Assembly (NCBI RefSeq): GCF_040250305.1 | Contig: NZ_CP158190.1 | Span: forward strand, 2,822,001 to 2,886,000 | Source: Peribacillus frigoritolerans | Lineage (GTDB): Bacteria > Bacillota > Bacilli > Bacillales > DSM-1321 | DNA length: 64,000 nucleotides | Reading direction: 5' to 3' | Program-made: the position numbers and the translations under genes | In this document: one piece after another, positions 5,580-45,781 of the stretch | Layout: each line of letters starts with the position of its first letter | Numbering within the stretch: the first letter of the stretch is position 1 | Notes under the pieces: model-generated | Told to the model about the DNA's origin: nothing | Databases searched by the model: none | Seen by the model: the letters and a program-made list of their open reading frames with translations, nothing else

Positions 5580-5645
5580 TCTACAAATTGAAAGAGACTT
5601 CATTAAGTCTCTTAGCTTTTTTATATTAAGAATGATTTTCTTCTA

Positions 5646-6089
5646 TTATATACGTTTCGCACCAATATACTTTGGCTTCCAATAGGTATTATTGGTTTTA
5701 GCGTATGACACTCCTTTAGATGACGAAGAGTGTATGAATTCATTGTTTCCTATGTATATAGCCACATGTGTAGGTTTTTTCGCTTTATTTGGTGCAAAAA
5801 ACATTAAGTCACCTTTTTGCAGGCTTTTAACTTTCTTACCTTTTTTATATATGTCAGCAGCAGTTCTTGGTAAATTCTTACCAGCTTTTTGATATGAATA
5901 CTTCACTAAACCGGAACAATCAAAACCTGAAGAAGAAATGCCACCCATTTTATATTTTGTACCTAATTCACTTTTAGCCACTTTAATAGCTTTTGTATGA
6001 TATGAAGCAGCTTCCACTTGGTCCCCAGCAAAGGATGCGGTTACAAGCGTAATAGCCAATGACAATCCGACGACAATTTTCTTAAACAA
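5646..6089 (-). CDS. Secreted NlpC/P60 family peptidoglycan hydrolase
   Basis: The protein has a Sec signal peptide (basic MFKK, hydrophobic VVGLSLAITLVTASFA, cleavage near VEAA) followed by a single NlpC/P60 domain. Catalytic Cys lies in GFDCSGLVKYSY and catalytic His in PTHVAIYIG. The family cleaves D-gamma-glutamyl-diaminopimelate (or related) bonds in cell-wall peptides. At 147 residues it lacks the LysM or SH3b wall-binding repeats of LytE/LytF/CwlS, so it must reach the wall by another route or act freely. It is a single-gene unit between its own terminator and a long upstream spacer. Confidence 0.9.
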   Translation of the reverse strand: MFKKIVVGLSLAITLVTASFAGDQVEAASYHTKAIKVAKSELGTKYKMGGISSSGFDCSGLVKYSYQKAGKNLPRTAADIYKKGKKVKSLQKGDLMFFAPNKAKKPTHVAIYIGNNEFIHSSSSKGVSYAKTNNTYWKPKYIGAKRI

Positions 6090-6359
6090 ATTATTTTACC
6101 CCCTGATGTGATTTGCTAAACCTAATATACTAGAAAAGGTATATCACTCGCATCACAGGATCTTTACAAATATGTTACATTTAGTAGATTTAGGAAGAAT
6201 GACCATATAAAACATAAAAATAAGTCGAATGATGTGTCCTTTTCGCTTAAATCTTACTTTACCTCATAGAAAAAACAGTAGTTAGATAACCACTGTCCAG
6301 TTTATCGATTAAAGAAGATTCGAGAATTTTAATATCCTTCATGTTTTTTATTTGATTAT

Positions 6360-6510
6360 ACGAATGGATCCCGCTCTAAAATGAAGAAATTTGCGACGAA
6401 ATCCAGCTAGCCGAGACCCCACGTCCGCTTGCTTTCATGGTCGGCGGGAGCGAATTTCTGGAATCAACTAACTGCAGGCAAACTGGCTCTACTCCAATTT
6501 GTCTGCAGCC
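6360..6510. other. Structured intergenic segment, unclassified
   Basis: The 444-base spacer downstream of the DUF457 gene carries a GC-richer block (CCGAGACCCCACGTCCGCTTGC, about 6411-6432) and a hairpin in which CTGCAGGCAAACTGG (6471-6485) pairs with CCAATTTGTCTGCAG (6493-6507). It may be a decayed member of a second repeat family, or a terminator without a clear U-tract for the gene at 6534. No open frame or promoter is evident in 6110-6530. Confidence 0.4.
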
Positions 6511-6533
6511 TGAACAGCGATAAAAAAACACTG

Positions 6534-7160
6534 TTAAAATTCTTTTGAGAAAAATGGAAGAAATAATTTCACCCCACGTTTATTAAAAGGTAAACATTTC
6601 AAATCTGCAATTAAATGACTTATGTATCCTAATGAACAAGTTGCGAAAATCCCGTCAATCCCCATAAAGGCTTCGAATTGAAAGGCAATGATGCCAAAAA
6701 AAGCGATACCGGCAATCGAATGGGTATAACTTCTATGTGGTGTAAAGGATGCCAGGATAATATAGACGCCTAACAGCCACAACCAGCTTTCCTGCAAAGA
6801 TAAACCGCCGCCTAAAACCGCTAATCCAGTCAGGGTCAGCATATGCCTTTGCCTAATGAATGAAGAAATAATGATGATTCCGATTCCTGCACCTACACCG
6901 ATCCACTTTTCCGTATCAGAGCCTTCCAAAAGACTATAAATGATCATTAATATCCCAATCGTTTGTGCTATCGTTCGGATAAACTTATGTGAAAAGGTAA
7001 TCCTATTACTTAACTTCCCATCAATATCCATATCGGGCATCAGCCCTGAAACTCCCCCGATGCCCACCAAGAATAAAGTGGTGGTTGGATCTGTTTGAAG
7101 TGTGTTTGCCGTCAAGAATCCAACTGTTGCCCCTATAGCCATGTGTGCTGTACCGTTCAC
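6534..7160 (-). CDS. DUF457/YdjM-family membrane-bound metal-dependent hydrolase
   Basis: This multi-pass membrane protein of 208 residues has the family's conserved polar motifs: an N-terminal His in NGTAHMAIGA, the acidic LMPDMDIDGKLSN near residue 40, and HRSYTHS near 143-149. These are thought to bind metal at the membrane. The founding member, E. coli YdjM, is LexA-regulated. The substrate is unknown. The start is GTG after AGGAGAG. A LexA-like box lies about 45 bases upstream (7205-7218), consistent with SOS control. It is a single-gene unit. Confidence 0.82.
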   Translation of the reverse strand: MNGTAHMAIGATVGFLTANTLQTDPTTTLFLVGIGGVSGLMPDMDIDGKLSNRITFSHKFIRTIAQTIGILMIIYSLLEGSDTEKWIGVGAGIGIIIISSFIRQRHMLTLTGLAVLGGGLSLQESWLWLLGVYIILASFTPHRSYTHSIAGIAFFGIIAFQFEAFMGIDGIFATCSLGYISHLIADLKCLPFNKRGVKLFLPFFSKEF

Positions 7161-7204
7161 TGTCTCTCTCCTGTCCCTCTAAGATGTAATCTGCTTCCAA
7201 AAAA

Positions 7205-7218
7205 CGAATGTTTGTTCG
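7205..7218 (-). promoter_or_regulatory. LexA (SOS) box-like operator upstream of the DUF457 gene
   Basis: CGAATGTTTGTTCG differs at one core position from the Bacillus SOS pattern CGAAC-N4-GTTCG. It lies between a possible -10 (TATAGT, minus strand) and the GTG start. LexA binding is inferred. Confidence 0.55.
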
Positions 7219-7402
7219 AATCCCTGCATACTAACTATACAACATTTTGGGGAAAATTTCTCTAGTTCTTATAAATAAAGCCATAGAAATCAGTAATTAG
7301 ACCATATAAAGAACCTTATTATTTTAGTTTCTTAGCTCGTTCTATATAAAGTATACTTTCAACCTTTTTGGGTATTGGGAAATTAAATTCAGCCAGTAAC
7401 AT

Positions 7403-8368
7403 TTATTTTTGGAGATATAACCAATTACGAAGCTCAATTATGGAATGTTTAGGTGAATCAAAACTTAGAAATGAATAGTCAATGAAGTCCACATACTTAT
7501 TGATTGCAGAATTCCTTTTGTTGAATAAAGTCGGAATATAGTAAGGAAACTCTTTAACTGAATGAAGAATAGGTAACTGCTCATATACAATCGATAACGT
7601 TCTGATGATTCTTTTTTTTGTTTTGTGACGCTTAGCATCCGCTAGTAATCTTTCAAAATCGATATCCAGGTTTATAAGAAGTTGAATGATATCTATAAAA
7701 TACTTTAATGAATCCATGTTATGCCGCCACCCATGGAGACAAATCGTATAAAAAAGATGGTAATCGGAAAGTTGTTTAACATGAAGTGAGTCATTGATGA
7801 GATATCCTTCTTTCCAAAACTCGGTGATTTCCAAATTAGCGGTATCTTTCTTTAAAATATCCCAATGAAGTTCGATGGTTAGTGGGATTTTGGATTCAGG
7901 AAGGTATTTACTGAACGAAGTATGAAAATGATTAGGTATTTGTTTCTCCTTTTGTTTATACCCTAATTGTTTGACCGATTCAATTGCCTGATCCATGTCA
8001 CTAGCTTTAATTAGTAAATCGATATCAGACGTGGGCCGAGCTCCAAGATGGCCGAACTGTTCCTCAGAAAAAAGCGTCCCTTTTAAAGGAATAACATCTA
8101 AGCCGTTATGTTCAAATTCACGCAAAACCAAATCTGTTTGACTTTTAATCAGGATATTTTGATAAAAGACACTTTGAAATTTTTCAATTATTACTTGCTG
8201 AAAGAACGCTGGAGTATCCATAAACCTCCCATTCCCTTTCATTAGGAACAATATTTGCGGATGAATTTTCGATTTTTCTATTTCATTTAGAAGCTGCCAA
8301 TAATATTCTGAGTCAATTGGCAACTTTACTTGCGGTTCAAATAGTACCTGCAGAATCGTTGGATTCAA
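7403..8368 (-). CDS. Nucleotidyltransferase family protein (NTP_transf_5 type)
   Basis: The protein has a nucleotidyltransferase-fold motif KGTLFSEEQFG ... RPTSDIDLLI, with the paired aspartates (DID) that coordinate Mg-NTP, and a helical C-terminus of about 170 residues. The chosen start is TTG at 8366-8368. It overlaps the upstream TGA (TTGA) and follows AAAGGGGAG by about 9 bases, giving 321 residues. A GTG/ATG-started reading up to 8461 would overlap the peptidase gene by 97 bases. Relatives occur in paeninodin/pseudomycoidin-type lasso clusters, and a second paralogue is in this window at 40720. By context it may add a group to a phosphorylated peptide, but the reaction is not known. It is the last gene of the four-gene operon. 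Confidence 0.8.
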   Translation of the reverse strand: MNPTILQVLFEPQVKLPIDSEYYWQLLNEIEKSKIHPQILFLMKGNGRFMDTPAFFQQVIIEKFQSVFYQNILIKSQTDLVLREFEHNGLDVIPLKGTLFSEEQFGHLGARPTSDIDLLIKASDMDQAIESVKQLGYKQKEKQIPNHFHTSFSKYLPESKIPLTIELHWDILKKDTANLEITEFWKEGYLINDSLHVKQLSDYHLFYTICLHGWRHNMDSLKYFIDIIQLLINLDIDFERLLADAKRHKTKKRIIRTLSIVYEQLPILHSVKEFPYYIPTLFNKRNSAINKYVDFIDYSFLSFDSPKHSIIELRNWLYLQK

Positions 8369-8832
8369 TGGGAAAGTCTCCCCTTTACTCTTTGTTGTAA
8401 ATTTAGGTGCTTTCGTAACATCCTCGATATAAACGGAAATGTAAGTATTAATCCACCCCATGCTTTTGCTAGAAAACCAGAAGCATGCAATTTGGAATTC
8501 CGTTTTTGGACATAAACAAGTTTACCAATCAATTGTTCCAATTGTACTGTATGATCAAAGCTTACATTAGTATCTCCTTTGAAAAGGTATCCGGGTTGCT
8601 GATCACTTTTCATTTCCTTATAATACCGGTGGGCAATCAATCGATTAGATGAAGTGTAAAACAAAATAATATCCCCTTTTTTTAAATGAAAAGGATTGCA
8701 TTCATTAAAGTTACATATATCCCCTTCCTCTATAAAAGGATACATACTACATCCTTGCGCAGGTAAATTAAGTGAGCCCTCTTTTTTCAGTGTCATCTTA
8801 AATAATTCGACAATCTCCTTGTCAAATAACAT
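8365..8832 (-). CDS. S26 (signal peptidase-like) serine peptidase
   Basis: The sequence shows GCSMYPFI with the nucleophile Ser (near residue 29), GDIILF, a conserved His in LIAHRYY, and FKGDTN (box D). The Ser-His rather than Ser-Lys arrangement resembles the SipW/archaeal branch of S26. Unlike true signal peptidases it has no N-terminal membrane anchor. Only a weakly hydrophobic stretch occurs near the C-terminus (GGLILTFPFI). It overlaps the PqqD gene upstream and the nucleotidyltransferase downstream, so the three are probably translationally coupled. It stands where the transglutaminase-like leader peptidase B2 is found in the lasso operon of this window, so a peptide-maturation role is a reasonable inference. 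Confidence 0.82.
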   Translation of the reverse strand: MLFDKEIVELFKMTLKKEGSLNLPAQGCSMYPFIEEGDICNFNECNPFHLKKGDIILFYTSSNRLIAHRYYKEMKSDQQPGYLFKGDTNVSFDHTVQLEQLIGKLVYVQKRNSKLHASGFLAKAWGGLILTFPFISRMLRKHLNLQQRVKGRLSH

Positions 8833-9088
8833 GCTGAATTAATCCAAACTGTAATAAATCCAATAAATACGACTCTATGTCATCTTTTGCTATTTCCTCT
8901 GCCGTTAAATATTGATCAGTTAATGTCTGAATCAAGGAGTCCACTGTTTGTGCTTGGTTTAAAAGCCCCCAGCAAAACCCACCGATTTCATTTAGCTTTG
9001 TCACTGTGAATTTTTCAGTATGTAAAATAATCCATTCATCACCAAGTTGCGTGGCTTCCACATGATTACTTTGAATATATTGGACCAT
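8822..9088 (-). CDS. PqqD-family peptide chaperone (RRE domain)
   Basis: This is a small winged-helix protein of 88 residues. The conserved PqqD pattern is visible: GDEWIILHTEKFTVTKLNEIGGFCWGLL, followed by a four-helix tail ending in DLLQFGLIQ. PqqD-like proteins bind leader peptides of RiPP precursors and present them to modifying enzymes. The ATG (9086-9088) overlaps the kinase stop codon (TAATG). The nearest candidate leader with a YxxP motif is the 50-residue peptide encoded at 12503. Confidence 0.85.
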   Translation of the reverse strand: MVQYIQSNHVEATQLGDEWIILHTEKFTVTKLNEIGGFCWGLLNQAQTVDSLIQTLTDQYLTAEEIAKDDIESYLLDLLQFGLIQHVI

Positions 9089-9858
9089 TACGAAATCAAC
9101 TCCCAAAAAGTATCGTTTTTCTGAAAAAAGAGGTTATATATAGGTACTTGGTTAACCAGTTCCGTTAACATCCCTAGTATCACTTTTTTATTTGCTGGAT
9201 GATCTGACCAATAAAACACTTTATTTATCATTGTTATAAGCGAATCCGATTTAGTAAGTATTTCTCTTTGGTTTTGAAGAGACTGATGCAAGACTTGAAT
9301 ACTCCCTAATGGGAAAATTTCTTCTTCCCCAGCAGCTAGGATTTCACTTCGGAATGGCGAATTATATACTTCCATTTTTTCGGATGAAATTTTTAAAATG
9401 GTTGCTTCATCCGAGAGAAGGTTTCGCGGATAAGATAATTTTGCTGCCGTTGATTTTCCAGCACCAGAATGACCTGCAAAAATATGAGCTTTACCATTTT
9501 CTATTACGCAAGAAGAGTGAAGCAGCAGCCCCCATTCATGGTATACAATGAACGAACTGTATAAATTAATTAATGCATGCTTTAAAGCCAATTCATTATA
9601 AGCGGAAATCTCTGCATATTGATATTCTGCATCTACTTCCACTAGGTAATCAGACCTTCGAAAATAAATTCTATCAGCCTGCCTATCTTCTTTCACATCA
9701 TAGTTCACAAAAGATGATCCAAAGTCCATCTGGATTGTTACGGTAAGGTCAGGCCGATAATTTGCGCCCTCCAATTCTCGGAACATCCCATTTATATATT
9801 CGGGGGCATTTTCAAATTGAATGAAATGATCCCCTATTTTAGTGTGAAATATTTTCAT
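9088..9858 (-). CDS. HPr kinase/PEPCK-fold kinase, RiPP-associated type
   Basis: The protein (256 residues) carries Walker A GHSGAGKST and the following LLSDEATIL acidic motif of the HprK/PEP-carboxykinase fold. It lacks the N-terminal domain and the HPr-binding signature of housekeeping HprK. The same fold is used by lasso peptide kinases (ThcoK/PadeK), which phosphorylate a C-terminal Ser. A paralogue lies in the lasso operon at 42697. The ATG follows AAAGGA by 8 bases. It heads an operon kinase-PqqD-S26-nucleotidyltransferase. Substrate unknown; a peptide is likely. Confidence 0.82.
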   Translation of the reverse strand: MKIFHTKIGDHFIQFENAPEYINGMFRELEGANYRPDLTVTIQMDFGSSFVNYDVKEDRQADRIYFRRSDYLVEVDAEYQYAEISAYNELALKHALINLYSSFIVYHEWGLLLHSSCVIENGKAHIFAGHSGAGKSTAAKLSYPRNLLSDEATILKISSEKMEVYNSPFRSEILAAGEEEIFPLGSIQVLHQSLQNQREILTKSDSLITMINKVFYWSDHPANKKVILGMLTELVNQVPIYNLFFQKNDTFWELIS

Positions 9859-9961
9859 AATTAGATTCCTTTCTCCCCTTTTTTTATCGACCGAAAATGT
9901 TTAAACAGAATATCCAACATTAGGATAATACTCCTACACACGCTATTATAATTCATTATAT

Positions 9962-9977
9962 ATTCTTTTTAAAGAAC
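9962..9977 (-). promoter_or_regulatory. SinR-type operator at the kinase/PqqD operon promoter
   Basis: ATTCTTT-TT-AAAGAAC is one base off the perfect palindrome seen at 38877 and 45884. On the minus strand it lies immediately upstream of TATAAT-like -10 elements (around 9944-9961). SinR binds GTTCTYT half-sites; binding here is inferred. Confidence 0.6.
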
Positions 9978-10088
9978 ATTTTCAGCTACCTGAATTAAAA
10001 ATATAAGTATATAAAGCACAAGTTATCTTATACTTTACCTTATTATTTAATTGTTTTTACTGAATTAAATAATTTTCATAAACGCATA

Positions 10089-10117
10089 TTGTTCTTTATG
10101 AAGAACGATGGTATTCT
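10089..10117 (+). promoter_or_regulatory. Promoter of the BIG2/peptide operon with SinR-type operator
   Basis: TTGTTC (10089-10094) and TATTCT (10112-10117) are 17 bases apart. The palindrome GTTCTTT-AT-GAAGAAC (10091-10106) overlaps the -35 and spacer. A degenerate ATTCTTT half-site follows at 10222. The predicted 5' leader is long, about 190 bases. Apart from the two operators, the 454-base divergent spacer 9859-10312 shows no gene. Confidence 0.6.
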
Positions 10118-10312
10118 AAAAAAAGTCAGGTATTTAGTTCTAGTAAATATTATAAACATGAGATGTAACGAATGAGTGAGGAAAACATACCACTACAAAC
10201 ATCCTGTTTTTTTCTAGACTTATTCTTTATAAATAAAGGCTTCATGTGTGAAAAGGAGGGGATTTACAAGAAAATTCAGCTTATATAAACATTTAACACA
10301 GGGGGAAATTTC

Positions 10313-12487
10313 ATGTCATTTGCAAGGAATATTAAAACGCTCACAATTTTAACGATTGCAATCCTTTTTTTATGTCTTGTGGGCAACTCGCAGGCATATG
10401 CGACAAATGGAGGTGGAAAAGGAAGTAAACCTGTTCATGTGACAGGGATTTCTCTAGCTCCAGAGACTATAAAAATGAAAATTAATGATAAAGATGTGGA
10501 ACTTGTTGAAACGATCAAACCTTTTAATGCTTCAAATAAGCAAGTGACTTGGTCTTCATCAAACACTCGAGTCGCAACGGTTTCTAACGACGGTATAGTC
10601 CATCCGAAAGGTCCGGGTACAACAACTGTTACAGTCACGACAAAAGATGGGAATTTTAAGGCGAGAACGAAAGTAATAGTATGTGAACCGGATATTGCCG
10701 TAAAAAGTGTTACGTTAAATCCGAAACTAGTAAATCTTACTGTTAATGATGAATCGCAATTAACAGCCAAAGTCATACCGGAGAATGCAACAAATCAAAA
10801 GCTTAGTTGGTTTTCTTTAAACCCACGAGTAGCTACCGTTTCAGACGGTAGGGTTCACGCCGTAAGGCCAGGAATCGCCATAATAAAGGTTTTCACTAAC
10901 AATGGGCGGTTCGATTGGTCAATAGTGACCGTTTGTGCTAGTAAACTAGTACCTGTTGAGAGTCTATCACTTAATCCGAAGAATATAGACATGACTGTTG
11001 GTGGAAAAGATGAGATCTTAACTGCGACCATCACTCCATCCAATGCAACAAACAAAAAATTAATATGGACTACATCCGACTCGAATGTGGCAACTGTTAT
11101 AAATGGAATAGTCCATCCAGTAGGTCCAGGGTTGGCTACCATCACTGTTTCTACAGAAGATGGAAAAATACAGGAAACAGCTAAAGTGACCGTAACAGTC
11201 CCAGTGACTGGAGTAAACATTAGCCCGGATTCTTTGAATCTAACGGTTGACGGTGAGGATAAAGCTTTAAACGCCCAGGTTTCACCATCCAATGCAACCA
11301 ACAAGAATGTCACTTGGTCAAGCTCAGATTCAAGTGTTGCCACCGTTGATAATGGTATCGTCCACCCTGTCGGACCAGGCCAAGCAACAATCACTGTTAC
11401 CACGGAAGATGGCAACTTCACAGCTTCAGCAACTGTTACTGTCAAAATACCTGTTACGGGTATTTCACTGGATCCTGCATCTCTGGAATTGATTGTTGGT
11501 GGAAAAAACGGAACCTTAACAGGAACAGTTTCACCATCCAATGCAACAAACAAGAGCGTCACTTGGTCAAGCTCAGATTCAAGTGTTGCCACCGTTGATA
11601 ATGGTATCGTCCACCCTGTCGGACCAGGCCAAGCAACAATCACTGTTACCACGGAGGATGGCAGCTTCACAGCTTCAGCAAATATTACTGTTACCGTACC
11701 GGTTACTGGAGTAACGGTTGACCCTGACACACTTGAACTTATTGTTGGCGGAAAAGATAAAAGTGTAACAGAAACGGTTTCACCATCTAATGCAACAAAC
11801 AAGAATGTCACTTGGTCCAGTTCAGATTCAAGTGTTGCCACCGTTGATAACGGTGTTGTCCATCCTGTTGGACCAGGTAAAGCCATCATCACAGTTTCAA
11901 CAGAAGATGGCGGGTTCACGGATATTGCTACTGTCATTGTCACAGCCCCAGTAGTAAGTGTATCTCTAGATCCTAAAAGCCTGAATTTCAAACTTGGAGA
12001 CGCAGATCAAAGTTTAACAGCAAAGCTTAATCCCTCCAATGCAACAAACCAAAATGTAAACTGGACTACATCAGATTCTAGTGTAGCTACCGTTGTAAAC
12101 GGGGTTGTCCATGCGGTCGGTATAGGTCAAGCAACAATTACAGTCACAACCGAGGAAGGTGGCTTTTCAGACTCAGCTATCATAACAGTTGTCGATCCGG
12201 ATACCATACCACCGATTACGAAAAATAAAATGACTCCTATTTTTAACGACAAAAATACCTATGTAATAGCCTTGACGGTTACCTACAATGCCTCAGATGA
12301 TAAATCTGGAGTAAAAGAAACATTATACCGAATAAACGGAGGAACTTGGCAGGTCTATACAAAACCTTTTGATGTCACTGCCGATAAAACCCACACATTG
12401 GATTACTACAGCATTGACAATGCTGGCAATAAAGAAACAATCAATTTATATGATTTTGACAAAGGAACATGCTCATGTTCTAAATAA
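10313..12487 (+). CDS. Secreted seven-repeat BIG2 (bacterial Ig-like group 2) protein
   Basis: A signal peptide (TLTILTIAILFLCLVG, cleavage near AYA) is followed by seven BIG2 domains of about 83 residues. Each starts V(T/E)xxxLxPxxL and contains (N)ATNKxVTWSSSDSSVATV and GxAxITVTTEDG. The C-terminal 95 residues form a different Ig-like domain (YRINGGTWQVYTKPFDV, SIDNAGNKET) ending in CSCSK. No LPXTG or membrane anchor is visible, so it is probably released or bound non-covalently, for example as a matrix or surface protein. Start: ATG after CAGGGGGAAA. The gene for a 50-residue peptide follows 15 bases downstream in the same unit. A SinR-type operator at the promoter fits a biofilm role. Confidence 0.88.
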   Translation: MSFARNIKTLTILTIAILFLCLVGNSQAYATNGGGKGSKPVHVTGISLAPETIKMKINDKDVELVETIKPFNASNKQVTWSSSNTRVATVSNDGIVHPKGPGTTTVTVTTKDGNFKARTKVIVCEPDIAVKSVTLNPKLVNLTVNDESQLTAKVIPENATNQKLSWFSLNPRVATVSDGRVHAVRPGIAIIKVFTNNGRFDWSIVTVCASKLVPVESLSLNPKNIDMTVGGKDEILTATITPSNATNKKLIWTTSDSNVATVINGIVHPVGPGLATITVSTEDGKIQETAKVTVTVPVTGVNISPDSLNLTVDGEDKALNAQVSPSNATNKNVTWSSSDSSVATVDNGIVHPVGPGQATITVTTEDGNFTASATVTVKIPVTGISLDPASLELIVGGKNGTLTGTVSPSNATNKSVTWSSSDSSVATVDNGIVHPVGPGQATITVTTEDGSFTASANITVTVPVTGVTVDPDTLELIVGGKDKSVTETVSPSNATNKNVTWSSSDSSVATVDNGVVHPVGPGKAIITVSTEDGGFTDIATVIVTAPVVSVSLDPKSLNFKLGDADQSLTAKLNPSNATNQNVNWTTSDSSVATVVNGVVHAVGIGQATITVTTEEGGFSDSAIITVVDPDTIPPITKNKMTPIFNDKNTYVIALTVTYNASDDKSGVKETLYRINGGTWQVYTKPFDVTADKTHTLDYYSIDNAGNKETINLYDFDKGTCSCSK
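11210..11960 (+). repeat. Tandem 249-bp DNA repeats within the BIG2 gene
   Basis: Equivalent positions (GTCACTTGGTC) recur at 11309, 11558 and 11807, exactly 249 bases apart. The blocks around 11309-11425 and 11558-11675 are nearly identical at the DNA level. This marks recent duplication of repeats 4-6 and makes the gene prone to copy-number change. Confidence 0.85.
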
Positions 12488-12502
12488 TCGGGAGGAATAA
12501 TT

Positions 12503-12655
12503 ATGGAAAAGCAAATCAAAGCAAAAAAGAAATACGAAGCGCCTAAAGTATTGCATCATCAAAACGTCACCTTTGAAACAGCGATCTCTTCTGCAACGGG
12601 ACATTGGGAATTCCAATATATAGATGGATGCTGGGTAAGGGTTTTTGTTCCTTGA
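12503..12655 (+). CDS. Candidate RiPP precursor peptide (50 residues)
   Basis: The ATG follows GGGAGGAA by 7 bases, and a strong terminator lies 22 bases after the stop codon, so this is a real small gene co-transcribed with the BIG2 gene. The N-terminus KKKYEAPKVLHH has the YxxPxL-type motif read by PqqD/B1 proteins and aligns with the lasso leader in this window (KKEWEKPKLEIL). The rest contains FETAISS and then an aromatic C-terminal part with three Trp/Tyr-rich turns and one Cys, ending WVRVFVP. There is no signal peptide. It does not match the paeninodin core. The divergent kinase/PqqD/S26/nucleotidyltransferase operon 2.6 kb away is the likely partner. Function and modification are unknown. 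Confidence 0.75.
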   Translation: MEKQIKAKKKYEAPKVLHHQNVTFETAISSATGHWEFQYIDGCWVRVFVP

Positions 12656-12677
12656 TGGTTATAATAAAGTAAAATAG

Positions 12678-12717
12678 CGCGTTAAGGTCTTTTCTAAAGA
12701 TCTTAACGCGTTTTTTT
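12678..12717 (+). terminator. Intrinsic terminator of the BIG2/peptide operon
   Basis: CGCGTTAAGGTC and GATCTTAACGCG form a 12-bp stem (one mismatch), followed by seven T on the plus strand. Between it and the next gene (12718-12967) nothing further is recognisable apart from the GAAGGAG site at the end. Confidence 0.9.
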
Positions 12718-38930: not shown

Positions 38931-40718
38931 TCATGAATTTATCGTATCCACTTCTCTTGTTAGCAATTGTTTAAATAAACCTCTTTCTTTAGACAACTCA
39001 CTATATTCACCGTTCTGTAAAATTTCACCTTTCTCTAATACGATGACTTGATCGGCATTCCTTATGGTGCTTAAACGGTGTGCAATGACAATGATGGTCA
39101 TGCGGCCCTGTAAAGTTTCGATAGCTTTTTGAATTTTGGCTTCAGTGTCGTTATCAAGGGCGCTGGTAGCTTCATCCAAAACCAGAATCGATGGTTTACG
39201 TAATATAGCCCTTGCTAGAACTAGTCTCTGTCTTTCTCCCCCGGATAACCTAATGCCTCTATCCCCAATTACCGTATCTATATTTTGAGGCAATTTAATC
39301 ACAAAATCAGCTGCGGCAGAAAATTCCAATGCTTCCCATATTTGTTGGTCGCTTGCCTTCGGATCGACTAAAAGCAAATTCTCCTTTATACTTCCATTGA
39401 ATAAAAATGGATCTTGGGAAACATAACTAATCGATTTCCTTAAACCGATTAAATCTTTTCTAGAAAGTTTTTTACCATCAACTATAATCTCTCCCACATC
39501 AGGGAGCATGAGGCCCATTATTAGATCGATTAATGTGCTTTTACCTGCCCCGGATGGACCAACGATAGCCGTCAACCTATTAGCGGGTATTGCTATATTG
39601 ATATTTTGCAGAGTATAGTCTGCTTCAGTTTTGTTATAACGAAAAAAAAGATCATGACATTCCAGTTTTTGTTCGATGACAATTGGCATGATATTCTCAA
39701 GACTATAAGCCTCTTTGTAGCCTTTCGCTTCACCTTCTATTTTCATAATGGATTTGAAAGCTGGTAAAGTTGAAGAAATATTTTCCATATTGCTTTGTAT
39801 GGCTGTAAATCTAGGCCATAACCTTGAAAAAATAAGGATAATGAGTAAAAGTTCTTCCTGTTGAGCAGCAAAAAGTGTAATGGATAAAAAAACGAAAGAT
39901 GCAATTAATAAGGCAGATGATACTTTATATGATAATTGAGATTTTGTGTTTAATTTAATATACTCAACTTGCTCGTCATTCATTTCTTTCGTTAAAGAAC
40001 TGATCCAATTTACATGTGATTTCTCTAAATGATAGCTTTTTATATCCTTAATTCCATTTAACTGATCGGTAACGCTGGCTAAATATCTTAGTGCTAATTG
40101 AGACGTCCTACTTCCTAATGACTTAGCTTTTCGGATGAATTTCCTTGAAAATAAGGCCAGGACCAAACCAGCAACCAAAACGAATATTGTAATTTTCGGA
40201 GCTAACCAAAACGCCACACAAATTTGAATGAAAGTAAAGATCACTGAGGCTAATAATTGTAAGATTAAATTAATTCCTGCACTAACTCGTGCTAAATCGT
40301 TTGTCATGATATTTATTAAATCCGATTTCCGTGTTTTAATAAAGAACTCCCAGTTGGCATGTAATAATGACTGATACAATTGAATCCTTAAATGACTTAT
40401 ATATGCTTGCTGCATTCTCACATCACGTATTGTAAGATTTCGTTGCAGGATGTTTTGGAGAATCACTAAAACAATATAAAAACCTAAAATAATTGATAGA
40501 CTTATCATTTTAGGTATCTCGACTATCCATGAGAGCGTGGAAGGAAGATTATTTGATAGATCTATATCTATAATTCCACTAACACTTATCATCGGTACTA
40601 ATAAAAGAATGCCTACACTGTCCAATAAGCTAACAATGACCATTCCTAGCATATTGATAAAAAGTATTTTCCCTGTGAAAGTGTATAGCCTTTTGAAAAA
40701 GAACCACAGCTGTTTCAT
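38931..40718 (-). CDS. ABC transporter, lasso peptide exporter (D protein)
   Basis: This fused half-transporter of 595 residues has six membrane helices in the first 320 residues, then an ATPase domain with Walker A GPSGAGKSTLIDLI, signature LSGGERQRLVLARAI, Walker B ILVLDEATSALD and the H-loop VIAHRLSTI. In lasso clusters such D proteins export the mature peptide and often give self-immunity. It has no peptidase C39 domain, as expected when leader removal is done by B2. It is the last gene of the lasso operon, with its start 2 bases after the nucleotidyltransferase stop. Confidence 0.9.
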   Translation of the reverse strand: MKQLWFFFKRLYTFTGKILFINMLGMVIVSLLDSVGILLLVPMISVSGIIDIDLSNNLPSTLSWIVEIPKMISLSIILGFYIVLVILQNILQRNLTIRDVRMQQAYISHLRIQLYQSLLHANWEFFIKTRKSDLINIMTNDLARVSAGINLILQLLASVIFTFIQICVAFWLAPKITIFVLVAGLVLALFSRKFIRKAKSLGSRTSQLALRYLASVTDQLNGIKDIKSYHLEKSHVNWISSLTKEMNDEQVEYIKLNTKSQLSYKVSSALLIASFVFLSITLFAAQQEELLLIILIFSRLWPRFTAIQSNMENISSTLPAFKSIMKIEGEAKGYKEAYSLENIMPIVIEQKLECHDLFFRYNKTEADYTLQNINIAIPANRLTAIVGPSGAGKSTLIDLIMGLMLPDVGEIIVDGKKLSRKDLIGLRKSISYVSQDPFLFNGSIKENLLLVDPKASDQQIWEALEFSAAADFVIKLPQNIDTVIGDRGIRLSGGERQRLVLARAILRKPSILVLDEATSALDNDTEAKIQKAIETLQGRMTIIVIAHRLSTIRNADQVIVLEKGEILQNGEYSELSKERGLFKQLLTREVDTINS

Positions 40719-40719
40719 C

Positions 40720-41901
40720 TTATCCTCCTATGACATTTCGTATTCTCGTTTTTCTCCAAAACCATAATAAAGGCCTCAAAGGAAAATATAAAAAATGGAA
40801 CTTTTGAGGCAACGGCAAGGTTTTTGTATCCTCAAAATAAGGATGAAGAAAACTGAGGATGAATAACAGTTTATTCTGAAATGACATGAGTGAAAATAGA
40901 TGCTTTTTATGATAACTAGCAATCTCTTCAGATAGTGGTTCATCATGAAGGTTAATGAATCGTTTAATATAAAATAGTGCTTCTTGTGCCAATCGATTGG
41001 AACGGTATTTTAATGTAAGATCGTTTACTTCCTTGTATATCGGTGTATTTAACAATTGGGAAGTCAGGACTAATGTTTGACCTGCAACATGCATATATTG
41101 ATATTTTTTTAGCAGACTAATGATTTTATCCCAATCCAATTTTTTTTGGCAAAGTCGGTCGATATCCACTAGCCAGCGAAGGCGTGACCATCCATGACGT
41201 GCCCCATGTGAAGTTAGAAATAAAAAGAGATCCTCATTACCTAAACAATATATCGGATATGAAGTAGTTAGTGAGCTAACCCTTTTTCTTAGCCATAATT
41301 CATTAAAAGTTGGTTCCTTGGCTGGACCTGGGTTTAAACGCCAATGAATTTCAAGTTTAATCTCTTTCTCGGTATGAAAATAGACAAAATGATGATGGCG
41401 CCACTTCCAATCATTTAATACGGTTTGTATATATTCATCTTTTACATATCCCATTTGAATTAAAAGGGACTCGATCTTTTCTAGATCATCGATGTTAACC
41501 AAAATATCAACATCACTTGACGTCCTTTGGGATATACCTCCATATAAGTCAGCTGCCAGTATAGGTCCTTTTAAAAAAAGCGTGGAAATTTCATTTTCAA
41601 AAACAACTCGGGAAATTCTTTCGATTTCCCCACTTAGCTTTAACATTTTAAAGGTGTTTTTTTGATAATCGTAGTACATCGATTGAGTTATAGGTGCAGG
41701 AATATAATTTGCGGATTTTAGTTTTGGATAAATAAGTGGGTAAACCCGATGATGCCTGGCTAGTTTCAAGAACAAATTCCAATCAAGGTTTTGTTCTACA
41801 TTAAATGGAGACTGCTTGTTTGTTTCACTTTTCAGACAATCCAATAAAAACTTTAATTCATTAGATATGCTTGAAGAATCGAAATTGGTTTTGTCATTCA
41901 T
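40720..41901 (-). CDS. Nucleotidyltransferase family protein of the lasso operon
   Basis: The 393-residue protein has FLKGPILAADLYG and RTSSDVDILVNI, the nucleotidyltransferase metal motif (DVD), followed by an EIHWRLNPGP motif and a helical C-terminal half. It is a distant paralogue of the gene at 7403. Such genes accompany the kinase in pseudomycoidin-type lasso clusters, where a further modification of the phosphorylated C-terminus has been proposed. The exact chemistry for this protein is not established. It sits between B2 and D in the operon. Confidence 0.83.
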   Translation of the reverse strand: MNDKTNFDSSSISNELKFLLDCLKSETNKQSPFNVEQNLDWNLFLKLARHHRVYPLIYPKLKSANYIPAPITQSMYYDYQKNTFKMLKLSGEIERISRVVFENEISTLFLKGPILAADLYGGISQRTSSDVDILVNIDDLEKIESLLIQMGYVKDEYIQTVLNDWKWRHHHFVYFHTEKEIKLEIHWRLNPGPAKEPTFNELWLRKRVSSLTTSYPIYCLGNEDLFLFLTSHGARHGWSRLRWLVDIDRLCQKKLDWDKIISLLKKYQYMHVAGQTLVLTSQLLNTPIYKEVNDLTLKYRSNRLAQEALFYIKRFINLHDEPLSEEIASYHKKHLFSLMSFQNKLLFILSFLHPYFEDTKTLPLPQKFHFLYFPLRPLLWFWRKTRIRNVIGG

Positions 41902-41915
41902 TTAATTCCCTCTTT

Positions 41916-42371
41916 TTAAGCTTTTTTTGTTTTAGCGAATTTCCCGACAACAATGAATTTACCCATTTCTTCTGCGCCCGTTACATAATACGGACCACTC
42001 CGCAACCAAGCATGAGCAATCAAATCACCTTTTTCATCTCTTGCCGTGCCAAAGTAAACTGTACTTTCCATTCCTCTTCTTTCAAGCATTTTCATTCCAG
42101 CTACCGCCTTAACTAAACATTGGCTCTCCCAGAATGTATAACGGCTCATGATATGTATGGCATCTGAAATGTTCTTGATTACTTCTTTATCTAAATATTT
42201 TATAGAATAGCTGGTTTCTTCCATGTGGTTTCCCAGTAATCGGGCACTCTTAATAAATGGAAACAATTTAAAAATACGGCCCACTGCTAAAAAAAATAAA
42301 GCTTCAAACAATAACCCCTTCATGCTCCTATTGAATGATATGAACGTGTTAATTTTTTTATAAAGATTCAT
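41916..42371 (-). CDS. Lasso peptide biosynthesis B2 protein (leader peptidase)
   Basis: The transglutaminase-like cysteine protease (151 residues) shows the catalytic Cys in WESQCLVKAVAGMKML and the catalytic His in LIAHAWLRSG, with a downstream aspartate-free YYVTGAEEM region. It removes the leader of the precursor after the leader is delivered by the separate B1 protein encoded just upstream. Splitting of B1 and B2 into two genes is normal for Firmicute lasso clusters. Confidence 0.92.
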   Translation of the reverse strand: MNLYKKINTFISFNRSMKGLLFEALFFLAVGRIFKLFPFIKSARLLGNHMEETSYSIKYLDKEVIKNISDAIHIMSRYTFWESQCLVKAVAGMKMLERRGMESTVYFGTARDEKGDLIAHAWLRSGPYYVTGAEEMGKFIVVGKFAKTKKA

Positions 42372-42404
42372 ATTTTGCCCCTATATAAACTGGAATATAA
42401 ATGC

Positions 42405-42704
42405 TTAAATTTCAGCTGGTAAGATAATTAACCCCTCATTATATAAATCACTTAAAAACGATAACACTTCTTCTTCGCATTCTTGTTGACTGACGTCATA
42501 CTGTGAAATCAATTTATCTAGTAAGTCACTAATTATAATTGGTTTTTCAATTAAACTCCAAATTTCCCCACCTAGAACTCCCAGATTATAATAATTCCCT
42601 TTTTCAATGCTAAGCATGACCAATTCCCCATCCATATCACTAACAATATTTCCCTGACTTTGAGTAATTACTTTATTTTTTGATAGAACTGATGCGTTAA
42701 TCAT
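42405..42704 (-). CDS. PqqD-like lasso peptide B1 protein (leader-binding RRE)
   Basis: The 99-residue protein contains the PqqD pattern DGELVMLSIEKGNYYNLGVLGGEIWSLI, quoted as GELVMLSIEKGNYYNL and GGEIWSLI, then SDLLDKLISQYDVSQQ and a helical LSFLSDLYNEGLI end. It binds the YxxP-type motif of the leader and hands the precursor to B2 and C. Its start overlaps the kinase gene by 8 bases. Confidence 0.9.
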   Translation of the reverse strand: MINASVLSKNKVITQSQGNIVSDMDGELVMLSIEKGNYYNLGVLGGEIWSLIEKPIIISDLLDKLISQYDVSQQECEEEVLSFLSDLYNEGLIILPAEI

Positions 42705-43635
42705 TTATTTTCTCTCCTTTAATTACACTTAGAACCGTGGTTACAATTTCGTGGGCTGTGAATGTTGAGGTTGGACGACTTAATCGATAAATCGGCACGG
42801 AATTCATACACTTTGCACAAATCTTGAAATGCCAATCCATCATATGCATTCTTTCAATTAGAGATCGTCTATAGGTATGTTCGTGCATTACTTGAAATCG
42901 ATGAAGCTTTTCAATAGTTTGAAGTTCAATCGATTCTATATCAGCTCCAACTAATTCGAATATCCCTCCAAGTGGCAAAGGTTTGTTATAGAAGTCTGCT
43001 TGCACTGGTATCGAAAATTTTGTCGTCCTATCGAATAAAGGTTGGTAATCAGTTGAATTCAATCCAAAAGCGTTTAAACTTTCCTGCCATAACTTTTGTT
43101 GAGGGTATGAGGGGTTAACCCATGGCTGGTTTTCCTCCATTAGAGATATTGCCACTACATCATCACTTAAAAGTTTATACCCCTTGTTTACGAAAGAGGA
43201 AGCTAGAGTAGATTTGCCAGCTCCTGATTCACCAATAAAAGCATATGCTTTTCCTTCAATCGCTATTGCACTTCCATGCAGTGGCAATACCTTTCTTTGC
43301 ATCAACAAAATTCCTAAACAGCTTCCTAAAATATAAAGCCGAATCTTATCATCGTTATCACTGTCGTAAATTGTAAACGTAATGGTTTTCCCATCTTCTA
43401 TTGAAAAAACAGCTACTCCCGGCACTTCGAACATTACGCGATTTCCTTCAACGACAAAACTTGTACGAATTAAAGGATTTATGTTTGACCAAACATTTGA
43501 TAAATCTTTCTTTTTAATCGTAATATCTGCTTCCTTTTCAATATCTGTCAATTTCTCTAACTCAGGAAGAGGAAGTACACTTTCTGCAATTAACCCAAAT
43601 GTGGTATACGTATATGTTTTTTCCGTGCTTAGCAT
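42697..43635 (-). CDS. Lasso peptide kinase (HprK-fold, PadeK/ThcoK type)
   Basis: The 312-residue protein has Walker A GESGAGKSTLASSFV, the LLSDDVVAI acidic motif and a conserved PSYPQQKLW loop, as in HPr kinase-fold enzymes of paeninodin clusters. Those enzymes phosphorylate the C-terminal Ser side chain of the precursor. The precursor encoded just upstream ends in Ser, which fits. Compared with the kinase at 9088 it has a longer C-terminus. It lies 90 bases after the precursor gene and its stem-loop. Confidence 0.9.
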   Translation of the reverse strand: MLSTEKTYTYTTFGLIAESVLPLPELEKLTDIEKEADITIKKKDLSNVWSNINPLIRTSFVVEGNRVMFEVPGVAVFSIEDGKTITFTIYDSDNDDKIRLYILGSCLGILLMQRKVLPLHGSAIAIEGKAYAFIGESGAGKSTLASSFVNKGYKLLSDDVVAISLMEENQPWVNPSYPQQKLWQESLNAFGLNSTDYQPLFDRTTKFSIPVQADFYNKPLPLGGIFELVGADIESIELQTIEKLHRFQVMHEHTYRRSLIERMHMMDWHFKICAKCMNSVPIYRLSRPTSTFTAHEIVTTVLSVIKGEKIND

Positions 43636-43677
43636 TCTTCTTCACTCCAAACATATCATCACTGTTTCCAAAAGAAA

Positions 43678-43702
43678 CCCTTACACTTACACGGTGTAAG
43701 GG
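43678..43702 (-). terminator. Intercistronic stem-loop after the lasso precursor gene
   Basis: CCCTTACAC and GTGTAAGGG form a 9-bp stem with a 7-base loop between the precursor and kinase genes. It is probably an attenuator or mRNA stabiliser that raises precursor over enzyme levels; the U-tract (GTTTCTTTT) is weak. Confidence 0.65.
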
Positions 43703-43724
43703 CATAAATCCTTTTAAATGAAAT

Positions 43725-43850
43725 TTAACTGAATTTTACCGGATCATCCGGATCTGGTTGAATCGCATCAGGAAGTCTCCTTCCTGGTCCAGCCATTGTT
43801 AAATTAACATTAAGTATTTCTAATTTTGGTTTTTCCCATTCTTTTTTCAT
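43725..43850 (-). CDS. Paeninodin-type lasso peptide precursor (41 residues)
   Basis: A small ATG gene with AAGGGAGGTGAAACG ahead of it. The leader MKKEWEKPKLEILNVNLTM carries the W/YxxP-x-L recognition motif and the conserved Thr at position -2. The 22-residue core starts AGPGRRLPD, so the predicted ring is an Ala1-Asp9 isopeptide bond. The tail AIQPDPDDPVKFS is nearly the paeninodin tail and ends in Ser, the expected site of phosphorylation by the neighbouring kinase. The ring differs from paeninodin by Arg-Arg-Leu at positions 5-7. It lies between the cyclase gene and the kinase gene, so C precedes A here. Confidence 0.94.
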   Translation of the reverse strand: MKKEWEKPKLEILNVNLTMAGPGRRLPDAIQPDPDDPVKFS

Positions 43851-43864
43851 CGTTTCACCTCCCT

Positions 43865-45781
43865 TCAAAAATGTTTTTTTATAAATCGTGACACGATTAT
43901 GCTGCGCATTAAAATTCTGAAATCATCATCAAACACTTTTTCTGGAAGAGGGTTTTGTTCGACGCTAATAAGTGCTTTTCTAACTTCCTCCAAATTTAAA
44001 AATTCAGACATGACTTCATCTTTACTAACACTATGCATTTCATCTATAAATGAACTCCATGATGATGCCATCCTATGAATTCCATCTGAGCCTTGTATTC
44101 CGCGCGTTTTATTATTCAGCCTAACATTATCAGGCAGAAACCCCTTAGTGGCCCTTCTTATTAAGGAGCGATCCTGACCATTTAATACATATTGTGATTC
44201 TGGAACTGAATTGCAAAATTGGATGATACGCAGATCGTTAGTTGGATCACGTTCAGCTATAGAATGTCTTAAGGATAGCTTGGTGGAAATATTCCCATTG
44301 ATATTCCAATAGTATAATTGTTCAAATTGAGTTCTTTTCATAGTAAAAACATTTTGTCTAATGGTACCTTTAACATCAATGTTATGTTCTTCTAATTTGG
44401 TGAATACTTTCGTTCTTCTTGCGAATTCAGGGTTTATTAACATTGGATAAGGTTCTCCTGCTGATGATGGGAAGGCTTTTTTTCTTACCTCTGTCATAAC
44501 TCTTGATTTGTTCACTCCATGATTTTCACTGAATGAATGTAATTCTTTGTAAAAGTGAACCAGTTTAAACTGCTTTAATAAACTAGCTTGATAGTCTAAA
44601 GCATGTCCCCATGATATGGTCCAATTACCTCTTTGACCATTTAGTAGCACCCTGATATTTTCTTGTGCAGCTTTTTCATAAATTCCTTTTAACCAAAAAC
44701 TATTTTCATAATATTTATAAGGCATTTCTAGCACTTCAAGCCAATCATCCACCTCTGATAAAGGGCTTTTATCTTTAAAATCCAAATAGTGATCCCTGAT
44801 ATTTCCTACATGTTCAACAGTAGAAGAAATAAAAGGCCTTTCATCAGCTACTCTGCTTTTAGGAGTCCAATCGACAAAATCCTCAACTGGTACATAGCTG
44901 TATGTATATAACTGTTTTTTTTGCTCATCTAAAGCCCTGGCTGCAAAGCTAACGACGGATCCAGAGTCCAGTCCTCCACTTAAATGTGAACCAATATTAA
45001 ATGTGGTCCTTAATTTGGATCTCACTACTTTATCGAAAACTTCTCTGAAAGCTTCCTCATATTCTTCATTAGTCTTTAACTTTAGCTTCACTTCGTTTTT
45101 AATAAAGGAATAACGTGAAAACTTTATATTTCCATCAATGATCGTTATTGAATGTGAAGGGGGTATCTGTTTAATGTTTTGATAAACTGTTGAAGAGGAA
45201 TCTACTGATTCCACATTAATGGGAATGGCCAAAAACTCCGATAACCACTCCTCATTCAATCTCTTTTCTATATATGGCAAATTAAGCAACGGTTCAACCG
45301 TAGTACAAAATGCTAATTTATCTTGATTTATAAAAAAATAAAGAGTGCGACTTCCTGAAAAGTCACGAGCTCCAAACAATTTGCGTTGTTTTTGATCCCA
45401 AATCATGAAAGCAAATTCACCAACCAAATACTTTGGTGTTTCCTCTTCCCACTTATAATAGGCAAGCAGAATCAATTGGCTATCCGTCATATTCAGTCGG
45501 TCAGAATTCTTAACCTGTAATCGTTCAAATAATTCTTCCCGATTATCAATGATTGCGTCGGAGGTAATGGCAAGCTGTCTGGCATAATCATAAAATGGCA
45601 GAGTTTCATTCACCGATTCAGGGGTAATCCATTGATTATGGCAGCCAAATAGGACTCTCTCATCATTCCATATTTGAATGCTGTCTGCCGGAAATTTATG
45701 TAATGATTTCATTAATATATCCCCATGATGGAGATTGATTGGTTCTTGGTTTAAATGATAGAGGCCAGCGATTGCACTCAT
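43865..45781 (-). CDS. Lasso peptide macrolactam synthetase (asparagine synthetase-like C protein)
   Basis: The 638-residue protein has the two-domain asparagine synthetase B fold. The N-terminal domain starts MSAIAGLY, with Ser instead of the catalytic Cys at position 2, so it has no glutaminase function. The C-domain has the ATP-binding PP-loop HLSGGLDSGSVVSFAA and the C-terminal KTRGIQGSDG region. It adenylates Asp9 of the core and closes the ring on the alpha-amine of Ala1. AGGAGGAAAAAT precedes the ATG. It is the first gene of the lasso operon. Confidence 0.92.
   Translation of the reverse strand: MSAIAGLYHLNQEPINLHHGDILMKSLHKFPADSIQIWNDERVLFGCHNQWITPESVNETLPFYDYARQLAITSDAIIDNREELFERLQVKNSDRLNMTDSQLILLAYYKWEEETPKYLVGEFAFMIWDQKQRKLFGARDFSGSRTLYFFINQDKLAFCTTVEPLLNLPYIEKRLNEEWLSEFLAIPINVESVDSSSTVYQNIKQIPPSHSITIIDGNIKFSRYSFIKNEVKLKLKTNEEYEEAFREVFDKVVRSKLRTTFNIGSHLSGGLDSGSVVSFAARALDEQKKQLYTYSYVPVEDFVDWTPKSRVADERPFISSTVEHVGNIRDHYLDFKDKSPLSEVDDWLEVLEMPYKYYENSFWLKGIYEKAAQENIRVLLNGQRGNWTISWGHALDYQASLLKQFKLVHFYKELHSFSENHGVNKSRVMTEVRKKAFPSSAGEPYPMLINPEFARRTKVFTKLEEHNIDVKGTIRQNVFTMKRTQFEQLYYWNINGNISTKLSLRHSIAERDPTNDLRIIQFCNSVPESQYVLNGQDRSLIRRATKGFLPDNVRLNNKTRGIQGSDGIHRMASSWSSFIDEMHSVSKDEVMSEFLNLEEVRKALISVEQNPLPEKVFDDDFRILMRSIIVSRFIKKHF

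Follow-up and report, generated by a model that had tools for sequence, protein, structure and literature searches.

A Peribacillus-type variant of the Linear Polyphosphorylated Peptide cluster with its precursor gene behind a Big_2 protein

Introduction

Which pathway is encoded by a block of genes in which a kinase, a PqqD protein, an S26 peptidase and a nucleotidyltransferase (NTase) face a BIG2 protein and a 50-aa peptide? The block lies at positions 7403-12655 of the window, that is, the whole 64-kb stretch of DNA analyzed here, to which all coordinates refer, and it belongs to a 5.6-Mb Peribacillus genome (G000). The preliminary description of this DNA took it for a possibly undescribed system, but the family is that of the Linear Polyphosphorylated Peptides (LPP), published in Nat Commun on 20 May 2026 (PMC13381572), and the locus is a new Peribacillus-type variant of this already published pathway. 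The leader motif and gene set presented below were derived independently of that report. Gene content, leader motif, catalytic and recognition residues, co-occurrence and the grouping of the RRE rest on the present analysis, and the capture, phosphorylation and cleavage steps are transferred by homology from the tested P. alginolyticus lpp cluster (PMC13381572). Taken as a whole, with these transferred steps included, the best explanation of the locus is very probably an LPP biosynthetic cluster.

According to the main text of PMC13381572, the reference cluster is lppAKBSDN of Paenibacillus alginolyticus DSM5050, with precursors of the family ranging from 35 to 200 aa. LppK places multiple phosphates on core Ser3, and LppS, a SipW-like enzyme with S29/H68/D93, cleaves after T-1 in an RRE-dependent manner; the functions of LppK, LppS and LppB were shown experimentally, LppN had no visible effect in B. 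subtilis, and LppD, an MsbA-like exporter, is counted in the conserved set.

Organization of the locus

Four overlapping genes run from 9858 to 7403 on the minus strand. The first (9088..9858) encodes a 256-aa LppK homologue, a kinase of PEPCK/HprK fold predicted to (poly)phosphorylate core Ser3, and is followed by a 94-aa LppB homologue (8822..9106), a discrete RRE with the PqqD fold (PF05402, 52 bits) and the predicted leader binder. Next come a 155-aa LppS homologue (8365..8832), an archaeal/SipW-type signal peptidase and predicted leader peptidase, and an LppN homologue, an NTP_transf_5 nucleotidyltransferase (7403..8368). The open reading frame of the latter reaches 8461; reading of the S26/NTase junction places its start probably at TTG 8368, where it overlaps with the stop of lppS, rather than at ATG 8461.

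Divergent to this block, an operon on the plus strand comprises the BIG2 gene (10313..12487) and the gene for the 50-aa LppA-type precursor (12503..12655). By reading, the BIG2 protein has a Sec-type N-terminus. It contains seven Big_2 domains, and its C-terminal domain is of the OmpL47 type (NF047446, 69.8 bits); PF02368 matches in seven stretches, in agreement with the seven repeats counted before. The ATG of the peptide gene comes 15 bases after the stop of BIG2, with a GGGAGG ribosome site, and an intrinsic terminator with a 17-pair stem followed by a T tail (12676..12712, plus strand) ends the operon. These features support a single BIG2-precursor transcript, which the preliminary description had assumed and which stays a reading of the sequence. 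The components named there are all present as judged by open reading frames, HMMs and the fold model, and, as it also stated, no cyclase, B2 protein or exporter is seen among the open reading frames listed in 7403-12655. Beyond the precursor operon, a right-handed beta-helix protein (PF13229; 12968-15013) borders exopolysaccharide-type genes; exopolysaccharide-like genes, glycosyltransferases included (by reading), fill the space between the block and a lasso peptide cluster further along the window.

Precursor peptide and leader motif

The peptide gene at 12503 does encode 50 aa, but not with the start quoted in the preliminary description: the frame begins MEKQIKAKKKYEAPKVLHH, and KKKYEAPKVLHH is internal, at residues 8-19. 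By homology to LppA, a cut is predicted after T26, separating a leader of residues 1-26 (12503-12580) from a core of 24 aa (12581-12652), in which 12587-12589 is the predicted phospho-Ser codon. The leader fits the LPP motif YxxPxVLxHQxIxFETxxS with YEAPKVLHHQNVTFETAIS, at an E value of 5.2e-11 against a leader profile (A2) of 40 rows built from relatives, one row being the leader of the window itself. The predicted core, AISSATGHWEFQYIDGCWVRVFVP, contains Trp and is not Gly/Asn-rich; by pattern reading, it reads like a strand-turn-strand (hairpin) element, as do a few precursors of two other genomes (G128 and G212).

The gene appears to be more than a chance reading frame, since it differs between G000 and G013, the one other genus genome with the block, in 17 codons, 10 of them synonymously (for codon 14 and beyond, 9 out of 11), and since a profile of 24 such peptides gives 230 database matches at E ≤ 0.01. 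When the window precursor is compared with seven relatives from databases, of which four are named Peribacillus, 28 positions are invariant; T26 and Ser29 are present and invariant in all 8 sequences.

A regular expression for the leader recovered 54 precursors in 50 loci; matches in L067 and L092, both on the opposite strand, had been dropped as chance before counting. As the expression fixes P, F and T and restricts other positions, the counts at those positions are not free: V or I stands at -8 from F in 54/54, Q at -4 in 47, H at -5 in 45, E directly after F in 52, and Ser three residues past T in 49. A set of 126 database peptides was made up of the seven relatives and of 119 further ones taken from the best 120 of the 230 matches; 124 of the set passed a motif filter, with Ser three past T in 123 of the 124. 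Tyr at motif position 1, reported as important for RRE binding (PMC13381572), is found in only 32 of the 54 precursors (loci L008-L105) and is absent from 22, with Trp there in none; recognition by the RRE thus looks looser than published, although the window precursor has the Tyr. Eight representative precursors were also compared with family collections. NCBIfam holds no family for five of them, and the other three gave one CFI-box-CTERM match above cut-off, one sub-threshold LPXTG match and one chance match (E 0.13); Pfam has no family for seven, with one chance match (E 0.2).

The four enzymes

The kinase stays below the cut-offs of NCBIfam and Pfam, and by sequence it finds among solved structures only weak P-loop matches, the best to PhnL at E 0.0049. 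Fold comparison of its AlphaFold model gives the PEPCK/HprK fold, and by this model it is an HprK-like kinase as LPP clusters have. The peptidase clears TIGR02228 narrowly (52.1 vs 51.85 bits), and its S29, H68, D93 and F42 lie at LppS numbering, each 100% conserved in 51 aligned sequences. In the RRE protein, N39 and D76 correspond to N33 and D70 of LppB by a constant numbering offset, LppB itself being outside the alignment. The NTase scores 108 bits against PF14907 (cut-off 31.2), with its GARPTSDIDLL region conserved.

Membership in the SynChlorMet family was considered and rejected: the kinase reaches 29.1 bits with TIGR04249 (ScmC) and the PqqD protein 30 bits with TIGR04248 (ScmD), against cut-offs of 125 and 100. 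The SynChlorMet family has radical SAM genes, and none was found among the window genes looked at. A kinase paired with a nucleotidyltransferase is also known from pseudomycoidin, as PsmK and PsmN; the likeness lies in this pairing. PsmN has been linked to a hexose on phosphoserine (PMC9266682). Pseudomycoidin is a lasso peptide modified on its C-terminal Ser, whereas the predicted Ser of the window peptide is the third residue of the core.

Co-occurrence of kinase and leader

Genomes were sampled at the levels of order, class, family and genus, the first three samples overlapping in part. In the order sample, the kinase family (E ≤ 1e-40) is present in 39 of 397 genomes, and the leader (E ≤ 1e-3) in the same 39 and in none of the 358 others. 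The kinase occurs in 8/398 genomes of the class sample and 3/43 of the family sample; in the former, the leader is found in 7 of the 8 kinase-positive and 0 of the 390 kinase-negative genomes. Because profile A2 was built from peptides beside the kinases of these same genomes, its sensitivity is circular, but the absence of the leader from kinase-free genomes is independent of this. The co-occurrence search that the preliminary description proposed thus finds the leader, in order and class samples, only where the kinase is. Its suggestion that peptide, PqqD protein, kinase, S26 peptidase and NTase form one pathway is borne out by this co-occurrence together with published experiments on the homologous cluster (PMC13381572).

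Within the genus, the kinase has a match at E ≤ 1e-5 in 4 of 36 genomes and a close full-length counterpart in two (G000 and G013), the same two of the 36 that have the peptide. A leader match in G032 (E 0.005) proved by eye to be a frame without leader and was treated as chance. The left flank of the block (~5600-7311) has a full or partial match in 13 of 14 genus genomes tested, and 7401-12656 is matched only by G013 among these 14; G024, of the same species, is without the block. Judged by this comparison of sequences, the LPP-type block is accessory in the window genome.

In databases, the kinase has 607 matches at E ≤ 1e-5, and among the best 120 of these the named ones come nearly all from Bacillus-type genera and Paenibacillus; for kinase and peptide alike, close homologues that carry a name belong to Peribacillus. 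Apart from the window, 54 loci were collected from the surroundings of kinase matches and from 6 named loci, the latter taken at 50-55% identity from 15, with nine weak ones (26-48%) left out; two of the 54 (L010 and L060) coincide, and L106 has a third kinase copy standing alone. PqqD is present in 53 of them, S26 in 52, a cassette-type ABC in 50, NTase in 53, a leader reading frame in 50, a lasso cyclase within 10 kb in 22, and a BIG2 protein in one. The commonest layout has precursor, kinase, PqqD, S26, ABC and NTase in one direction, the precursor being directly upstream of the kinase, with exceptions such as an NTase between precursor and kinase. A precursor behind BIG2 is seen only in the window and G013, among the loci seen. 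One genome (G724; L093, L105 and L106) has three kinase matches, one of them in a fetched stretch that shows no cassette, and another (G555; L085) has two inside one locus. Among 72,556 plasmid records, tblastn gave no match for the kinase or for one Gly/Asn-rich precursor, the latter being a low-complexity query that was possibly filtered.

The missing exporter

An LppD-type ABC gene is found neither in 7403-12655 nor in the G013 locus, and the best match to the cassette exporter in G000 is 35% identical, compared with 58% in G042. The lack of an exporter, listed in the preliminary description, is not typical of the family: with a cassette-type ABC in 50 of the 54 kinase loci, its absence here most plausibly reflects a loss, and in our judgment it makes the locus a variant of the LPP family rather than excluding it. 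In G076, the fetched 20 kb hold no full exporter, only a 29-bit open-frame match. In G629, which has no LppD-type gene in its locus, the ABC beyond the NTase (L068:5215-7005) is a second lasso-type one (887 vs 318 bits), which fits the idea of lasso exporters standing in.

The loss could also mark a cluster in decay, which would still be of LPP ancestry and have no present product. Besides the exporter missing from both the window and G013 and the poor best match in G000, the confinement of the block to 2 of 36 genus genomes and its absence from the same-species G024 speak for decay. It is nonetheless improbable, given that the catalytic residues checked are all intact, that the 28 positions noted above are invariant across the window precursor and its seven relatives, that G013 has retained both BIG2 and the cassette, and that a precursor and a kinase also occur in Peribacillus NPDC097675 and NPDC097295, on contigs of equal size. 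In a working LPP cluster, the lineage that lost LppD might export its peptide through another ABC transporter, plausibly LasD of a paeninodin-type cluster ~26 kb from the precursor, a step with less support than the enzymatic ones; alternatively, the product may stay inside the cell.

Relationship to the paeninodin-type lasso cluster

This possible exporter source lies at 38931..45781 on the minus strand and consists of D (38931-40718), NTase (40720-41901), B2 (41916-42371), B1 (42405-42704), K (42697-43635), the precursor A (43725-43850, ATG at 43850) and C (43865-45781), A and NTase being identified by HMM and the others named by reading. Its precursor, pointed out before, is real: it reads MKKEWEKPKLEIL and scores 56.9 bits against the NCBIfam paeninodin family (cut-off 27). 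B1 has G42, as does PbaB1, and the lasso leader has W (WEKP), as described for paeninodin systems (PMC13381572).

The four enzymes of the block might then be accessory to this cluster ~26-30 kb away, considering that kinase, RRE, NTase and ABC exporter of LPP and paeninodin-type cassettes are homologous, their K, B1, NTase and D profiles matching across cassette types (hhalign 97.5-100%), and that a lasso cyclase lies no more than 10 kb away in 22 of the 54 LPP-type loci. That linkage is local only; a lasso cyclase is present in 42 of 199 genomes, and no enrichment of LPP with lasso is claimed at genome level. The window lasso cluster, however, is equipped with K, B1, B2, NTase, D and C of its own. 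When 53 LPP and 22 lasso RREs are placed in one tree, a single branch with support of 100/99 separates the groups, and the window RRE falls with that of G013 among the LPP ones, although the columns are few and many other forks are unresolved. Moreover, Y vs W in the leaders and Asn vs Gly in the RREs fit the discrimination rule given in PMC13381572. Paeninodin-type clusters have a macrolactam cyclase and a transglutaminase-type B2 peptidase, with W in the leader where LPP has Y; neither enzyme is seen among the open reading frames of 7403-12655, and the S26 and B2 profiles are unmatched (hhalign 25.7%). A service of the four genes to the lasso cluster is accordingly very improbable. That the BIG2-linked peptide has nothing to do with the kinase operon and lies near it by accident is scarcely credible, for despite the divergent orientation and a precursor outside the kinase operon here, the leader (E ≤ 1e-3) is confined to kinase-positive genomes of the samples and in the commonest layout precursor and kinase are adjacent and co-directional, with the precursor first.

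Proposed pathway and comparison with the reference cluster

As an LPP cluster, the block would work as follows. The RRE (8822-9106) would capture the YEAPKV leader, the kinase would phosphorylate Ser29 (core Ser3) once or several times, and a cut after T26 by the SipW-like peptidase would set free AISSATGHWEFQYIDGCWVRVFVP. If the analogy with PsmN of pseudomycoidin holds, the NTase may attach another group. Co-transcription with the Big_2 gene suggests a joint role at the surface or in the matrix, beside the exopolysaccharide locus.

With the P. alginolyticus cluster as given in PMC13381572, the window shares the leader motif, an RRE with Asn/Asp contacts, an HprK-like kinase, a leader peptidase of signal-peptidase type with Ser-His-Asp, an NTP_transf_5-type enzyme and the absence of a cyclase, and both have a paeninodin cluster and polysaccharide genes close by. 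In contrast, the window is without LppD, its precursor gene follows that of a secreted Big_2 protein in a divergent operon and is not beside the kinase, and its core of 24 aa with Trp is strongly different from the 45-aa core of P. alginolyticus. The variant shows that the exporter, the position of the precursor and the core are all open to change; leader, kinase, RRE and peptidase are retained, which tells what the pathway requires.

LPP leaders on larger proteins

LPP leaders are also found on proteins much larger than the window peptide. In G712, one (E 8.9e-6) starts a 564-aa Glu/Pro repeat protein with 13 PETNPAPE units (L120:4646-6340), encoded on another contig than the lpp cassette, beside sulfite reductase genes and behind the ribosome site AAGGAG. 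In G212, a genome marked as 7% contaminated, a leader (E 1.5e-6) is on a 214-aa protein with LPNAS, a hydrophobic stretch and a basic tail (L121:9167-9811), 46 kb from the LPP kinase and near a lasso cluster. A protein of at most 208 aa in G076 (L127:2111-2737), 40 kb from the kinase, has a Gly-rich stretch, LPNTG, a hydrophobic stretch and a basic tail; it carries a probable LPP leader, its E value of 0.19 being within the chance range. Reading of the G212 and G076 proteins revealed no Sec signal. Their sorting signals are likewise called by reading, since the NCBIfam LPXTG model gives the former 13.5 against a cut-off of 15.9 and does not report the latter.

These proteins suggest, without proof, that the LPP machinery also handles surface proteins. 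A broader possibility, put forward tentatively and rather doubtful at present, is that LPP leaders serve as a general targeting device for surface proteins of up to 564 residues, which would be phosphorylated on a Ser near the new N-terminus, trimmed, exported independently of Sec and in some cases anchored by sortase, with the Peribacillus phosphopeptide working together with the co-transcribed Big_2 protein in a surface matrix and leaving by a borrowed transporter. Leaders on repeat-rich and apparently sortase-anchored proteins would thereby offer a testable phospho-modifying, possibly Sec-independent route to the surface in Bacilli. In the main text of PMC13381572, the terms Peribacillus, Ig-like, repeat, LPXTG and sortase were not found, and its supplements may hold more; a search of the literature for LPXTG with RiPP leaders and phosphorylation turned up only a 2016 review on cyclisation. 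Beside two cassettes, the leader is carried by CFI-box-CTERM proteins, and in G428 it is found on two Ser/Thr-rich proteins, one of which has FEH in place of FET.
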